From the NCBI RefSeq assembly GCF_009498735.1, contig NZ_ML762443.1, positions 20,818 through 64,730 of the forward strand: a stretch of 43,913 nt of DNA, in the 5' to 3' direction. Positions 16,348 to 43,913 of this stretch are shown piece after piece. This DNA is from Gracilibacillus oryzae. GTDB lineage: Bacteria > Bacillota > Bacilli > Bacillales > Amphibacillaceae. The notes below the pieces were generated by a model. The model did not search any database. It saw only the letters and a program-made list of their open reading frames with translations, and had not been told where the DNA came from. Every line of letters begins with the position of its first letter. Within the stretch, counting starts at the first letter, position 1. The position numbers and the translations under genes are program-made.

Positions 16348-16824
16348 CTATTCTACTTTTAAAATCTTTACTTCCATATCACCAGCTGGTGTTGGAACCG
16401 TTAACTCTTCTCCAACAGAATGTCCCAGGAGGCTTTTGGCGATTGGAGAATCATTCGAAATTTTTCCTTCGAACGGATCAGCTTCTGCACTGCCGACAAT
16501 GGTATAGCTTTCTTCTTCCCCATCAGGCAGTTCCTGGAATGTGATCGTTTTCCCTAATGCTACCGTGTCCGGATTCTCGTTGTCATTCTCAATGATAACA
16601 GCATTACGGATCATATTCTCAACCTGAGCAATTCTTGATTCAACAAATGCCTGCTCATCTTTAGCCGCATCATATTCTGAGTTCTCCGATAAATCACCAA
16701 ATCCTCTGGCGATTTTAATTCTTTCTACTACTTCTTGTCTTCTTTCCGTTTTTAAATATTCTAATTCTTGTTCTAATTTTTCTTTACCTTCTTGGGTCAT
16801 ATAATAACTTTTATCTTCTGGCAC
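16348..16824 (-). CDS. greA: Transcription elongation factor GreA
   Basis: The 158-residue protein has an N-terminal antiparallel coiled coil (residues about 10-80). Its acidic tip is in [16 protein letters not shown], which reaches the polymerase active site to stimulate cleavage of backtracked RNA. A C-terminal FKBP-like domain follows ([20 protein letters not shown]). The start is GTG with GGAGTG upstream. The neighbour udk matches the Bacillus order. Confidence 0.96.
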
Positions 16825-17046
16825 TGTCCTACACTCCTTCTATATACATTGTACCGATTGATTAACATGATTGTTGTTTCATTTTATGAATCAATCTTAT
16901 ATTTATCCCTAATATTTATAGCTTGGTTTGTCGAATGAGGAAACCATCGGACTCTGCTTGCTAAAAATATTTTACTAACCATTACTATGGCAGATTTTAT
17001 CGATTTTTTCAATAGTTTTCTATCCGTTTCTGTAATCAAAAATAGA

Positions 17047-21388: not shown

Positions 21389-24022
21389 TTAACCTTCTTT
21401 TTGTGCATATTTTTCTACATATGCTAATGCTTCCGGTAATTTGTTTGGATCTTTTCCGCCTGCCTGTGCCATGTCTGGTCGGCCGCCACCGCCGCCGCCG
21501 CAGATTTTGGCAGTTTCTTTAATCAGATTACCAGCATGATATTCCTTCACTAAGTCTTTGGTCACACCTGCCGCTAACTGTACTTTCCCGTTTTGTACCG
21601 CTGCTAGCAGGATGATTGCTGTATCAAGCTTTTGCTTCATATCATCCACCATCTGACGTAATTGGTTCATATCAGACACATCCACTTGTTTTGCCAAAAC
21701 TTTTACACCATTAATTTCTTTGACATCATCCAAAATAGAGGATGCTTCAAGTTGAGATATCTTCCCTCGCAGTGATTCAATCTCACGCTGCTGTTCTTTC
21801 ATATCTTTAAATAGAGACTCAATTCGGTCATTTACTTGGTCTTCTTTCGTTTTTAACAAGCCTGCAGCTGTTTTTAACTGGTGGTGCTTTTCATTGACAT
21901 ACTCATATGCTGCTTTGGCTGTTACAGCTTCGATCCGTCTCGTACCAGCTCAAATGCCTGATTCTGACACAATTTTAAATAAGCCGATTTCTGCCGAGTT
22001 ACGGACATGACAGCCACCGCAAAGTTCCAGGCTGTAATCCCCAATTTGCACTACTCTTACAACATCGCCGTATTTCTCTCCAAACACTGCCATTGCTCCC
22101 ATTTCTTTAGCTTCAGCAAGTTTTTTGTTGCTGATATTAACCGCAATGGATGCCCAGATTTTTTCATTGACAATCTGTTCAATCTTCACCATTTCTTCTG
22201 CTGTTACGGAACCAAAATGAGAAAAGTCAAAACGCAGTCTTTCCGCAGCAACCATGGAACCTGCCTGATTGACATGTGTACCTAACACATCTTTTAATGC
22301 CTGATGCAATAAGTGTGTTGCCGTATGATTTTTGACAATAAACTGGCGGGAAGTCTGGTCAACTGCTGCTGTAACCTGCTCCGCTTCTGCCAACGTACCT
22401 TCCTTCACCACAATTTTATGCAAATTCTGGCCATTTGGCGCTTTTTGGACATCTACTACTTCAGCTTGTCCATTTTGCCCGATAATCAAACCTTTGTCCG
22501 CGATTTGTCCACCACTTTCCGCATAGAAAGGTGTTTCTTTTAAAATCACATATGCTTCTTTGCCGGCAGAAACAGAATCCACAGTTTCTTTCTCCACTAC
22601 AATCGCGCTGATGCTTGATGTTACAGACAATTGATCATATCCGACAAATTGGCTTTCTTCTGTAATACTTGCTAAAACACCGTCCTGAATCTGCATGCTA
22701 TCAACTTTTTGTCTCGCATTACGGGCTCTGTCCCGCTGTTTTTCCATCTCTGTTTCGAATCCTGCTTCATCAATCGTAAAGCCAGCTTCTGCCACATATT
22801 CTTCGGTTAATTCTTTCGGGAAACCATAGGTGTCATATAAACGGAAGACTTCTTCCCCAGGGAAAACGGTACTTCCCGTTTCTTTTTCCTTTTCCACTAC
22901 AGCATTCAGGATCTGCAAGCCTTCCTGCAATGTTTCATGAAATCTTTCTTCTTCTGTTTTGATCACATTCTGAATAAAATCCTGTTTTTCCTTCACTGCT
23001 GGATAGAATGCTTCCATAATTCCGGCAACAGTTGGAACAAGCTCATGCATAAATGGTTTTTCAATGCCGATTTGTTTGGCATATCTTACTGCCCGGCGTA
23101 ATAATCGTCTTAATACATAGCCGCGGCCTTCATTTGATGGCAATGCTCCATCACTTACCGCAAATGTAACCGTACGAATATGGTCTGCAATAACTTTAAA
23201 AGAAACATCCGCTTCTTCTGACGCATTATATTTTGTATTAGCGATCTTTTCCGTTTCCTGAATAATTGGCAGAAATAAATCTGTTTCAAAATTTGTTCTG
23301 GTACCTTGAATCACACTGACAAGACGTTCGAGTCCCATCCCTGTATCAATATTTTTCTTCGGCAGCGGTGTATATGTGTCATCCGGATTATGGTTAAATT
23401 CAGAGAATACTAAATTCCAGATTTCCAGATAACGTTCGTTTTCCCCGCCTGGATATAATTCCGGATCTTCGAAATCATTGCCATAGCTCTCACCGCGATC
23501 ATAGAAAATCTCGGTATTTGGCCCACTTGGCCCTTCCCCGATATCCCAGAAGTTTTCTTCAATGCGGATGATCCGCTCTTCTGGCAAACCGATTTTGTCC
23601 CGCCATAATACATACGCTTCTTCATCCTCCGGGTGTACCGTGACAGATAATTTTTCCGGATCAAAGCCAATCCATTTTTCTCCTGTAAGGAACTCCCATG
23701 CAAAATCAATCGCTTCTTCTTTAAAATAATCTCCAATGGAGAAATTCCCAAGCATCTCAAAGAATGTATGGTGACGTGCTGTGTAACCAACATTCGTGAT
23801 GTCATTTGTTCTGATTGATTTTTGTGCATTGGTAATACGTGGATTCTCCGGCACTACTCGTCCATCGAAGTATTTTTTCAATGTTGCCACACCACTGTTG
23901 ATCCATAATAATGTTGGATCTTCATGTGGTACTAAAGAAGCACTGGGCTCCACACTATGACCTTTTTCCTGAAAGAAATCGAGAAACATTTGGCGCACTT
24001 GCGCTGAAGTAAGCTTTTTCAT
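21389..24022 (-). pseudogene. alaS: Alanyl-tRNA synthetase gene with one in-frame TGA
   Basis: The frame runs for 877 codons, the normal length, but codon 691 (21950-21952) is TGA where the family has a Gly codon (SESGI-stop-AGTRRIEA; family SESGIGAGTRRIEA). No frameshift is present. Residues 1-690 (21950-24022) hold the class II catalytic core and the editing domain ([20 protein letters not shown]). After the stop, the coiled coil and C-Ala domain with its glycine stretch (GGGGGGRPDMAQAGG) remain intact; a TTG at 21859 could start a separate fragment. AlaRS is normally essential. The break falls between the editing and C-Ala domains. It may be a base error, a real mutation, readthrough or gene fission. 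A T-box leader lies upstream. Confidence 0.85.
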
Positions 24023-39170: not shown

Positions 39171-39462
39171 TGGGACATAACAAAAATAGTTAATTTTAAT
39201 TTAAAACCGAAAAATATAGAAACATTTGTGGTACTCACTAATGTACTAATATAGATAGTTCTAGAACACCGCTGGGGAAAATACTCGCTTTCACCACTGG
39301 CATAAGGGCGACATCTACTCAAGCAAAATGCACTTGAGAAGTGTCTTCTTTACCGTAGGCACGGCGGTCTGCTAACTTGTTAAAGAAGACCACTTTAACA
39401 AGTGGATCTTCAGCTCGCGCTGTTCCTACTGGAGTCTCGCATTTTCCCCAGCTTTTTATGGT
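39171..39462 (-). repeat. Intergenic repeat element (family B/D), left copy with extra module
   Basis: The element matches that at 40660-40880 in opposite orientation. Shared parts are GGGACATAAC, ACTCACTAATGTACTAATA, GCTGGGGAAAATACTCGC, a hairpin ACTTGTTAAAG/CTTTAACAAGT (39375-39403), and GCATTTTCCCCAGCTTTTTA. The left copy has about 61 bp more (39297-39357), a module also seen near 13928-13980. Confidence 0.8.
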
Positions 39463-39784
39463 TTCCTGGACTAATATGCAGAACGAATATCATCCTTTAA
39501 AAACAGCTTCACTTACAGTCAGTTTAGGCACGGTCACCCATTTAATTGAAAAGTCTTTCTTCCAAATTAAGAAGTTTATCTTAGGCAGAGGATGATCAAT
39601 CCTGTTCTCATAAAACAAATAAACCGGACGATTCTGATATGCTCCCCATAAGGTAGACAGATTAAAAATATAAAATCTGTTCACCTTATGGGGAGTTTTT
39701 ATTCCTAATCAATCTCATTCTATTGAATTTAAATTAGATCCACGCTTATTCAGTAAGAGAATTATGTTCCAAAGTGGATTATTA

Positions 39785-40062
39785 TTTCGATGACTAAGAA
39801 CATAGCTGACAATGGCTCCATCATATATCACACTTAATTAAGCTTTTGGGGACATCCTATACTCAAATTCACTGACATCTGTTACCCATTTTTCATTTGG
39901 CTTCTCTGCTTTAAATTCGCGATTCAGGATGTTTTCGACCACTTGTTGGGGAATGAAACGTTTATAGTGATTCTTCTTTTCAGTATAACTGATTGTATTC
40001 TTGCAACTTTCATCAATCGATAAATTCTTTTATGGTTAAATCTCTTTTTAAACTTTTATACC
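39785..40062 (-). pseudogene. IS3-family transposase OrfB, N-terminal half, broken
   Basis: On the minus strand, pieces read KRFNHKRIYRLMKVARIQSV, then after a frameshift KRFIPQQVVENILNREFKAE and KPNEKWVTDVSEF. The last contains the first Asp of the DDE triad. A TAA then interrupts before AIVSYVLSHRNNN. The remainder of OrfB does not follow in this orientation. Confidence 0.75.
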
Positions 40063-40088
40063 CATTCGTATAATGACATGTTATGAAA

Positions 40089-40441
40089 TTGATATTTGTT
40101 TTCGAAACATTAGATTTAGCGATCGCTACGTTAAAAGAAGGAGAACATTCCCTTCTTCATAATGACAGAGGATTTCAATATACTTTTTATAAGTTCAAGA
40201 GGAAATAGATAAAGCAAAAATGACGCATAGTATGTCTCGTGTTGGAAAATGTATTGATAATGCCTCAATGGAATCATTTTGGGGAACGCTTAAGTGTGAG
40301 AAATACTACTTACATAATTACAAGACATTTGAAGAGCTTTCTAAAGCAATAAATAATTACATTTATTTTTACAATCATAATCGATACCAAGAACGATTAA
40401 ACGGCCTCAGTCCAATGGAATACAGGACAAAGACCACCTAG
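40089..40441 (+). pseudogene. IS3-family transposase OrfB, C-terminal half, broken
   Basis: The plus strand reads FVFETLDLAIATLKEGEHSL and LHNDRGFQYTFYKFKRK, holding the second Asp of the DDE triad. A stop and frameshift follow. Then comes MTHSMSRVGKCIDNASMESF, with the catalytic Glu region, and it ends SPMEYRTKTT. It continues where the inverted N-terminal half stops. Confidence 0.8.
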
Positions 40442-40458
40442 ATCATTTTTATTATTTC

Positions 40459-40486
40459 CACTGTCTTCTTGACAGGGGGCAGTTCA
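40459..40486. repeat. Terminal inverted repeat of the IS3-type element
   Basis: The 28 bp ending in GACAGGGGGCAGTTCA are repeated in inverted orientation at 43837-43863, with a one-base difference in the centre. Confidence 0.8.
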
Positions 40487-40659
40487 AATTCGTCCGGTTT
40501 TTTTGCTTTTTATAAGAGTTTCTCTAATCCTCTACTTAATTTCACGTTCTTGCTTTTAAAAGTGAGACTTTCAAGTGGAGTTGATGATCGTGCCTCAACT
40601 TACCTTAAATTATGCTGTCTTAACAGGATGATATTCGTTCCGCTTATTAGTCTAGGAAG

Positions 40660-40880
40660 CAATAAAAAGCTGGGGAAAATGCGAGACTCCTATGGGAACA
40701 GCACGAGCTGAAAATCCACTTGGTAAAGTGACTTTCTTTACCAAGTTAGTTGAAGCCGAGCCCACGGAAAGCGAGTATTTTTCCCCAGCGGTAACCTAGC
40801 ACTATCTATATTAGTACATTAGTGAGTGACATACTTTTGTATATCATTTTTAGATTAACTATTTTTCGTTATGTCTCAAC
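40660..40880 (+). repeat. Intergenic repeat element (family B/D), right copy
   Basis: The outer stem pairs GCTGGGGAAAAT (40669-40680) with ATTTTTCCCCAGC (40777-40789). An inner perfect 11-bp hairpin ACTTGGTAAAG/CTTTACCAAGT lies at 40718-40746. The flank ATTAGTACATTAGTGAGT is shared with the left copy. The core GAGACTCCTATGGGAACAGC also resembles the element at 19771. Confidence 0.8.
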
Positions 40881-40886
40881 CTTTTA

Positions 40887-41333
40887 TTATCTGTCAGCAG
40901 ATTCCAAAATAATCGTAACTGGGCCATAATTTGTGAAAGAGACATCCATCATTTCACCGAATATTCCTGTTTCAACAACAATTCCGCTGTCTTTTATTTG
41001 CTTATTAAAGCTCTCATAAAGCGAGCGTGCCATATCTGGCTTTGCTGCCTGCATGAAGTTTGGCCGCCTTCCTTTACGGCAATCCCCATATAAGGTGAAT
41101 TGAGAAATGGATAATATTTTCCCGCCAACATCTTTTAATGATAAATTCATTTTCTCATTTTCATCCTCAAACACACGGAGATGGATTATTTTATTCACTA
41201 AATAGTCGACATCTGCCTCTGTATCTGAATGGGTGACACCAACGAGTGCAACAAACCCGTCGTCAATTGCACCAACTGTTTCCCCATTTACCGTAACAGA
41301 GGCATCTTTCGCTCGTTGTAATACTACTTTCAT
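40887..41333 (-). CDS. dtd: D-aminoacyl-tRNA deacylase Dtd
   Basis: The 148-residue protein removes D-amino acids from charged tRNA. The SQFTLYGD motif is present, with the chirality-checking GP cis-peptide in FTNYGPVTI and [10 protein letters not shown]-like text ([14 protein letters not shown]) following. The ATG at 41333 has AAGGGAG about 10 nt upstream and is preferred over an ATG 9 nt earlier. It follows relA by 15 nt, as in Bacillus. Confidence 0.95.
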
Positions 41334-41348
41334 CAGGCACATACTCCC

Positions 41349-43553
41349 TTATTGAATCGTTCGTTCTACAGTATAAACATCTTTAATTTGCTTTAATTTT
41401 TCGACAATTCGTCTTAAATGATTAATATTATGGATTAATATTGTAACATGAATAATCGCTATTTTATTGCGATCAGAGCGCCCATTCACCCCAATAATAT
41501 TCGTTTTCATTTCATTAATAACCTGAAGCACATCATTTAACAAACCGCGTCGGTCATAACCGGAAATTTCCAAGTCCACATGATATTGCTTTGATTCCGC
41601 CTCTTCATTCTCCCAGTTAACTTCCATTAAACGATCTTTTACTTCATCTGTCTGAACATTCGGACAGTCTAGTCTATGAACAGAAACACCACGCCCTTTG
41701 GTGATATAACCCACAATCTGGTCACCAGGAACCGGATTACAGCATTTTGATAACCTTATCAGCATGTTATCAACACCTTCAACCCTTACACCTGAATCCC
41801 GTTTCGGTTTTTTCTTCAGATTCTGCCCACTTGCATTAACCTCTTCAATTGTTTCCTCGATTTTTTTATTCTTTTCTTTCTCTTCCCGAATCTTCTCTGT
41901 TAAGCGAGTAACAATTTGAGCTGCCGTAATACCGTGATAGCCGACTGCTGCGAACATGTCCTCTTCTGAGGTAAAGCTGAATTTATCCATTGCCAACTGG
42001 ACATTTTCTTCTGTCAAAGTTTCTTTCGGCTCATATCCTGCCAGCCTAAGTTCCTCTTCCACCAGTTCCCGGCCTTTTATCACATTTTCTTCACGAAGCT
42101 GTTTTTTGAAAAATTGCTTAATCTTATTTTTCGCTTGTGATGTCTGGGTCATTTTCAGCCAGTCTTGTGAAGGACCATAAGAATGCTTGGACGTCATCAC
42201 TTCGACAATGTCACCATTTTTTAATTGATAATCCAATGGTTCCATCTTGCCATTCACCTTAGCACCGATCGTATGATTCCCAACTTCTGTATGAATTTTA
42301 TAGGAAAAGTCAATTGGCACTGAACCCCTTGGCAGTTCAATTACATCCCCTTTGGGTGTAAAAACATAAACCATATCTGAGAACAGGTCAACCTTTAATG
42401 ATTCCATAAATTCTTCCGCATCATGGGTATCATTTTGCCATTCAATGATTTCCCGGAACCAAGCTCATTTATCTTCATTGGATTGTTTTGCTGGATTAAT
42501 ATTTTTGCCTTCTTTATATGCCCAGTGTGCCGCAATCCCGAATTCGGCAATTTCGTGCATTTCTTTTGTCCTGATCTGCACTTCTAACGGCGCGCCTTTT
42601 GGCCCAATTACCGTTGTGTGCAAGGATTGGTAAAGGTTCGGTTTAGGCATGGCAATATAGTCTTTAAATCTGCCAGGCATCGGCTTCCAGCATGTGTGAA
42701 TAATACCCAGCACAGCATAACAATCCTTAATGCTCGAAACAATGATCCTGACTGCAAGCAAGTCATAGATTTCATTAAACTGTTTCTTCTGCAGCATCAT
42801 TTTGCGATAGATGCTGTACAAGTGTTTCGGCCTTCCGGAAAATTCTGCCTGAATATTGACTTCATTTAATTGTTTTCTGACTTCCTGCATCACTTCTTCA
42901 ATATAATGCTCACGTTCTTCTCTTTTTTGTTTCATTAAATGTACAATACGATAATATTGCTGTGGATTTAAATAACGGAGTGCAGTATCTTCCAATTCCC
43001 ACTTAATCGCAGAGATTCCGAGCCTGTGTGCAAGTGGTGCAAATATTTCTAATGTTTCGTTGGAAATACGACGCTGCTTTTCCATTGGTAAATGTTTTAA
43101 TGTCCGCATGTTATGCAATCGATCTGCCAGTTTAATTAAGATGACACGAATGTCTTTGGCCATCGCGATAAACATTTTGCGATGATTTTCCGCCTGCTGC
43201 GCCTCTTTGGACATATATTTAATTTTCCCTAATTTGGTAACCCCATCAACAAGCATGGCTACTTCTTCATTAAATGCGGAGTGCAGATCCTCTACTGTTA
43301 CAGAAGTATCTTCCACCACATCATGAAGAAAGCCGCCTGCAATTGTTTCAGGGTCCAGTCTTAGATTTACTAATATTCCAGCAACCTGAATGGGATGAAT
43401 AATATATGGTTCACCAGATTTACGGAATTGCCCCTCATGAGCTTTTTCTGCATACTGATAGGCGTGTTTAATGAACTTAATATCTTCATCATTTAAATAG
43501 CTTTCCGCTTGTTCAAAAATCTCTTCAGGCACTAAAATTTTATCTTTTGCCAT
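41349..43553 (-). pseudogene. relA: RelA/SpoT-type (p)ppGpp synthetase/hydrolase gene with one in-frame TGA
   Basis: The frame spans 734 codons, the length of B. subtilis RelA, but codon 363 (42465-42467) is TGA where the family has Leu (EDK-stop-AWFREIIEW). Residues 1-362 hold the HD hydrolase ([21 protein letters not shown]) and synthetase ([19 protein letters not shown]) domains. After the stop come TGS (DMVYVFTPKGDVIELP), the zinc-finger/RIS part (SKCCNPVPGD) and ACT. Translation after the stop could restart at ATG 42407. The 1-362 fragment resembles catalytic Rel fragments that act without ribosome control. AAAGGTG precedes the ATG, and an extended -10 (TGGTATGAT) lies near 43607. A base error is possible. 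Confidence 0.85.
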
Positions 43554-43836: not shown

Positions 43837-43913
43837 TGAACTGCCCCCTGTCAAGTAGACAGTGGAAATAATAAAAATGATCTAGGCGGCCTTTGTCCTG
43901 TATTCCATCGGAC
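43837..43913 (-). mobile_element. End of a second IS3-type element (cut by right edge)
   Basis: The 77 bp match 40410-40486 in opposite orientation with about four differences. They include the terminal inverted repeat TGAACTGCCCCCTGTCAAG. The stretch 43554-43836 before it shows only the probable relA promoter. Confidence 0.85.
43882..43913 (-). CDS. IS3-family transposase OrfB C-terminus (partial)
   Basis: Only the last residues SPMEYRTKAA and the TAG stop are inside the window. They match the end of the transposase fragment at 40089-40441 (SPMEYRTKTT). Nothing can be said about whether this copy is intact. Confidence 0.75.
   Translation of the reverse strand, partial: PMEYRTKAA

Follow-up and report, generated by a model that had tools for sequence, protein, structure and literature searches.

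An in-frame TGA between the catalytic and regulatory halves of rel in a Gracilibacillus oryzae draft genome, possibly a wrong consensus base in an assembly with other core-gene stops

The window we analysed, 43,913 nucleotides in length, makes up the right-hand 43.9 kb of a contig of 64.7 kb (C20) in the draft genome of Gracilibacillus oryzae (G000; 4.63 Mb in 53 contigs). It carries rel on the minus strand, running from a start at 43553 to the normal end of the gene at 41349. An in-frame TGA interrupts the gene at codon 363 (42467-42465, minus strand), and the frame beyond it stays open as far as the normal end. The features of the rel region are the following:

42465..43553, minus strand: 5' part of rel from ATG to TGA, 362 aa, with HD and RelA_SpoT domains (Pfam, structure matches, alignment)
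42465..42467, minus strand: in-frame TGA, codon 363, aligned to Leu in 79 of 80 relatives (sequence and relatives)
41349..42464, minus strand: remainder of the rel frame (371 codons plus the normal stop), encoding TGS, AH/RIS and ACT (Pfam; no sign of relaxed constraint)
42405..42407, minus strand: first in-frame start past the stop, ATG at codon 383, a candidate restart (open reading frame, Shine-Dalgarno energy)
40887..41342, minus strand: dtd (D-aminoacyl-tRNA deacylase), intact neighbour of rel (sequence)
43837..43913, no strand assigned: end of a repeated element, which forms the end of the contig and lies 284 bp upstream of the start of rel, with an inverted copy at 40410-40486 (repeat comparison)

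The gene encodes a long bifunctional RSH enzyme, Rel, with HD hydrolase and RelA_SpoT synthetase domains and their conserved residues. The top matches of its product in a search of solved structures are Rel proteins, and the catalytic half retains the invariant columns of a 28-row alignment in which its own row is included. Pfam places HD_4 at residues 31-180 and RelA_SpoT at residues 240-350, both 5' of the stop; TGS, RelA_AH_RIS and ACT_4 lie 3' of the stop and are all encoded only past the TGA. The stop falls between the synthetase domain, which ends at residue 350, and TGS, which begins at residue 395, and this is the layout of a Rel allele cut after the synthetase domain. The original prediction had placed an in-frame TGA in rel at 42465-42467, at the border between the catalytic and the regulatory half, and had proposed a product of residues 1-362 that holds hydrolase and synthetase and lacks the ribosome-sensing part; position and border are confirmed, and the Pfam domains agree with the proposed content. 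The predicted length of 362 residues is also correct, but the mass given as near 41 kDa is not, the computed value being 42.2 kDa. When the intact Rel of G. ureilyticus is modelled, the cut lies inside a predicted helix (residues 359-375, pLDDT below 50). Around the cut the AlphaFold models have low confidence (pLDDT below 50 at residues 356-362 and 331-431) and therefore do no more than place the cut in a predicted helix.

The nearest named relative is G. ureilyticus, with 96% identity over Rel residues 1-362, and the sister genome used throughout (G016) was taken as this species. For the comparison of rel we used 80 loci (L004-L083), the best 80 of 386 that encode a relative. Among these best 80 the residue aligned to codon 363 is Leu in 79, and the length of Rel is 729-736 aa in 79, the exception being a draft of G. 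boraciitolerans (L026). The claim that the stop replaces a Leu codon fits these relatives; the ancestral codon may have been TTA, as proposed, although G. ureilyticus has another Leu codon at this site. In a family search over 159 genomes, 148 of the 150 genomes listed have an open rel frame of at least 729 codons, and the only short frames among those 150 are found in G. oryzae (372 codons) and in one further genome, G001 (404 codons). The TGA is private to the G. oryzae genome among the relatives examined. In the G. boraciitolerans draft the short frame (387 aa) results from a one-base deletion near codon 345, beside a run of G; the downstream half is intact in another frame, and the gene also has two extra Gly codons elsewhere. 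G001 matches L026 at both places probed. The extra Gly codons and the deletion look like homopolymer errors of that draft, and we rejected L026 as a second, independent break at the same rel border within the genus: it is a one-base deletion, which we take as an assembly error and not as convergence.

The repeated element ends at 43837-43913 and 40410-40486 appear insertion-sequence-like by our own reading, and as an inverted pair they flank rel and dtd. Further copies of the element end are found on contigs C6, C9, C16 and C41, always in the first 220 bases. The approximately 1.7 kb between a CwlD-like amidase gene and dtd (39182-40866) hold nested inverted repeats with arms of 195, 72, 65 and 36 nt and contain what is, by eye, an apparent transposase remnant. 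In the sister, about 60 bp separate these genes.

Substitutions in rel were polarised with seven outgroup species. After the stop, the ratio of nonsynonymous to synonymous changes is 14:62 in this lineage versus 10:64 in the sister (p = 0.51); in this lineage alone it is 14:62 after the stop versus 5:58 before it (p = 0.09). The relaxed constraint that would mark a decayed pseudogene was thus not found 3' of the rel stop in the polarised counts against the sister. Private changes at conserved sites are unevenly distributed, with two before the stop and 11 after it (not counting the stop or the upstream extension), which could be read as relaxed selection past the stop; however, the polarised counts match those of the sister, and we discarded this reading. 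For alaS, which is also interrupted in the window, the ratio after its stop is 7:24 versus 7:37 in the sister (p = 0.55). The parts beyond the rel and alaS stops show no sign of decay, in counts that are small. Constraint on the part of rel past the stop matches that in the sister, so either the change arose very recently, or the whole protein is still made, or the base is wrong.

The interruption of alaS is the second in-frame TGA of the window:

21392..24022, minus strand: alaS frame broken by a TGA (sequence, genome search)
21950..21952, minus strand: in-frame TGA in alaS, codon 691 (comparison with the sister)

The sister has Gly at this codon, which lies inside the second additional domain. 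alaS has one match above the cut-off in the whole genome, and a stop at codon 691 of a sole alaS is expected to be very harmful. A literature search on truncated AlaRS returned nothing of use.

A comparison from the sister to G. oryzae used 309 G016 open reading frames as queries; 107 had an orthologue in the part of the G. oryzae genome compared, giving 34,705 aligned residues. Seven stop events were found in these 107 genes. Four of them fall within the first 11 query residues and reflect start choice, and the three internal stops are those in rel, in alaS and in the gene for a 150-aa protein on contig C16 (about 16544-16993, L123), where an in-frame TAA stands at a Glu codon of the sister. 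No frameshift splits were reported among the 107 genes. In the reverse comparison, 110 of 426 open reading frames had an orthologue, and the six stop events in G016 were all near gene ends, none of them internal. Likewise, no internal stop was found in 196 gene copies of the window region from seven further species, a control in which two stops within the first 12 codons in one species (G011) were left uncounted. A stop inside a match to a penicillin-binding protein in G011 was rejected as an internal stop because it is the normal end of that gene.

We also applied a composition-based scan, whose threshold is exceeded by 72-75% of coding windows, to 942 kb and 841 open reading frames of the G. 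oryzae genome. It returned 12 matches, of which we kept five as broken genes: rel, alaS, the C16 protein, and two genes newly shown to be broken. One of these is a ctpB-like protease gene on contig C9 (L230:617-1606 onward), which has two in-frame stops, a TGA where the sister has Leu and a TAA where it has Ser, and is open in all eight of the eight relatives searched. The other encodes a penicillin-binding protein on contig C15 (L247:11406-13574), with a TAA inside the transpeptidase domain where the sister has Tyr. A related penicillin-binding protein gene at C31:18089-18740 was matched in two frames and has further stops; this gene and ctpB, with its two stops, look like genuine pseudogenes. 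A match on contig C5 was rejected as a broken gene, as Pfam shows two different adjacent genes there; five of the remaining matches were set aside by eye, and the match at C1 145643 is also outside the five kept. Stops near the starts of a sigma-factor gene (13102), which we take to be sigK-like, and of the CwlD-like amidase gene (38281), and one upstream of a small synthetase gene on C16, were dropped as matters of start-codon choice. A phage-type gene on contig C1, in which a TAG is followed by 38 more codons, appeared in one comparison and is absent from the composition scan; it was left uncounted. In the scan controls there were no matches among 335 open reading frames of G016 and six among 341 of seven other species, and these six were rejected as broken genes, since by eye they look like starts of the next gene.

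The excess of internal stops in G. oryzae over these controls is suggestive only and statistically weak. It amounts to 3/107 versus 0/110 genes in the comparison with the sister (p = 0.12) and to 5/841 versus 0/676 in the scan (p = 0.07); in the window region it is 2/32 versus 0/196 (p = 0.02), for a window that was chosen because of a stop.

Five of the stops can be assigned to one step from a codon for the residue of the sister: those at rel Leu, alaS Gly, C16 Glu, and ctpB Leu and Ser. The stop in the C15 penicillin-binding protein gene is ambiguous as to the base change and stands outside these five. For three of these five (rel, alaS and the second stop in ctpB) the starting codon was reconstructed, because the sister has a different codon for the residue. 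All five assignable stops are G<->T or A<->C transversions. Codon usage places 43% of stop-making steps in this class, and five out of five would be expected about 1.5% of the time by chance, for a pattern that was noticed post hoc. Changes of this class are typical of guanine oxidation and of cross-talk between colours in older four-colour Illumina data. A high density of random errors in the window was rejected. If the two window stops reflected the local density of random errors, about 15 extra missense changes of this class would be predicted at conserved sites, whereas 17 were observed and natural divergence by itself predicts about 22. Given this lack of surplus missense changes, base errors can only be sparse; a density estimated over 942 kb is compatible with the counts. 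The nonsynonymous share at conserved sites is higher in G. oryzae (157:125) than in the sister (115:176; p = 1e-4), and the share of single-step changes is alike (120/157 and 87/115, respectively). This equal single-step share suggests that the higher nonsynonymous share is due to an effect of the lineage and not to base errors. A mutator driven by oxidative damage may be at work, since it would yield base changes of the kind proposed for the miscalls; a mutY-deficient mutator was rejected, the mutY match being above the cut-off and without an internal stop.

The likeliest cause of the rel TGA appears to be a wrong consensus base in the draft, to which we assign a probability of about 0.5. The stop itself, its restriction to this genome among the relatives examined, the further stops in the genome and the constrained downstream half are observed; that the base was miscalled and not mutated we infer. 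The TGA would then represent a single-base change at a Leu codon of an ordinary, recently intact rel, the wrong base would be among several G/T or A/C changes creating stops in core genes, and the cell would contain normal full-length Rel and no split protein. We regard a consensus error as slightly likelier than a nonsense mutation at the level of the strain because the stop is private, other core genes carry stops, the only alaS match is among those hit, the changes belong to one class, and the downstream half is constrained. An alternative explanation, which we consider tentatively and which has a real though lesser chance of being correct, is that a genuine and very recent nonsense mutation occurred in the strain. 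Rel 1-362, lacking TGS, AH/RIS and ACT, would be blind to starved ribosomes, and residual control of the alarmone would come from any hydrolase activity that the fragment retains and from two small synthetases. The genome does contain two further RelA_SpoT genes, presumably of the RelP/RelQ type, with short open frames and no internal stops. This speaks for such a mutation, as do the conservation of the catalytic half of rel and the presence of other real-looking pseudogenes in the strain; because of the same two genes, a cell with a poor hydrolase is expected to suffer. An allele of this kind is described as having arisen in Staphylococcus aureus (PMC3857269), but the Bacillus subtilis fragment Rel 1-373, which is longer, is reported to have failed to rescue a rel deletion (PMC7058999). 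If the alaS stop is real, the strain must also survive with a truncated sole AlaRS. The absence of relaxed constraint after the rel stop also weighs against a nonsense mutation, but shows only that it would be recent.

UGA is leaky in B. subtilis, and readthrough frequent enough to produce full-length Rel, at a lowered level, would fit the constraint seen past the stop. In-frame stops within genes that are under purifying selection have also been described as widespread in bacteria (PMC7918605). However, we consider readthrough of the rel TGA improbable. The stop occurs in no other relative among the best 80, the release factor 2 gene matches model residues 12-353 without an internal stop, and tRNA-Sec has no match over the cut-off in the genome. 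Among 23 tRNA genes (ARAGORN, 10 loci; 23 of 25 tRNA matches), in an assembly whose tRNA set looks incomplete, none has a UCA anticodon, and tRNA-Trp has a CCA anticodon and a 5-bp anticodon stem as read by eye from the letters. Selenocysteine and a suppressor tRNA were rejected on these grounds, and no sign of recoding was found for the rel TGA. A functional split, in which residues 1-362 and a separate chain from residue 383 cooperate with or oppose each other, is very unlikely. As the original prediction stated, the C-terminal half remains open and could start again at the ATG at 42407 (codon 383), which opens a frame of 352 aa (40.3 kDa) behind a moderate Shine-Dalgarno match (anti-Shine-Dalgarno duplex energy of -4.6 kcal/mol, versus -4.9 at the rel start). 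The ATG itself is nevertheless ordinary, since an equal or stronger Shine-Dalgarno energy is found for 11 of the 78 other internal ATGs across six window frames, and the split is found in none of the relatives examined. Equally hard to credit is the idea that both window stops are real and linked, in that a crippled sole alaS would lead to uncharged tRNA-Ala and a constant alarm, which the truncation of rel would silence as a natural suppressor. A purposeful or adaptive split of rel is not supported. The original prediction considered rel by itself; scattered nonsense load or base errors account for the TGA better, because other core genes have in-frame stops, including the only copy of alaS. 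The simplest explanation is a base that is either wrong or mutated very recently, in a single draft with further stops of this sort.

With a wrong base, the rel stop would be no real feature, and the case advises caution against reading biology into a lone in-frame stop of a single draft; looking for stops in that draft's other core genes is a cheap check. If the stop is real, it is a rel allele cut between catalysis and sensing in a non-clinical genus, and it repeats a kind of allele known from a strain of S. aureus (PMC3857269) and from engineered constructs (PMC7058999, PMC6053245). The pairing of a truncated rel with a broken alaS would be of interest if both are real. In the texts available to us, a literature search on Gracilibacillus and the stringent response found no paper on the subject.

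In Escherichia coli relA1, relA is reportedly interrupted in such a way that two fragments could be made, but the break is said to be an insertion element near the N-terminus, unlike the stop between the two halves here. The 476mut relA allele of S. aureus (PMC3857269) is similar to the present case in that the stop follows the SYN domain, TGS and ACT are lost, and the allele arose in one strain. It came to light in a comparison of full genomes from susceptible and resistant cells, whereas the rel allele described here comes from one draft assembly and from sequence alone; furthermore, the S. aureus stop is reported to go with an approximately fourfold (p)ppGpp level, whereas here other core genes are hit as well. 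The original prediction that Rel fragments of this type keep catalysis without normal control is partly supported: it agrees with that allele and with the CTD-deleted Rel of S. aureus, which is described as hydrolase-on and unable to mount a stringent response (PMC6053245). It agrees less well with B. subtilis, in which Rel 1-373 is reported to have weak net synthesis and, like Rel 1-336, not to rescue a rel deletion (PMC7058999). The CTD-deleted Rel of S. aureus and Rel 1-373 of B. subtilis resemble the fragment encoded here in consisting of the catalytic half only; Rel 1-373, however, is 11 residues longer than 1-362 and would mostly keep the helix at 359-375 in which the cut is predicted to lie.
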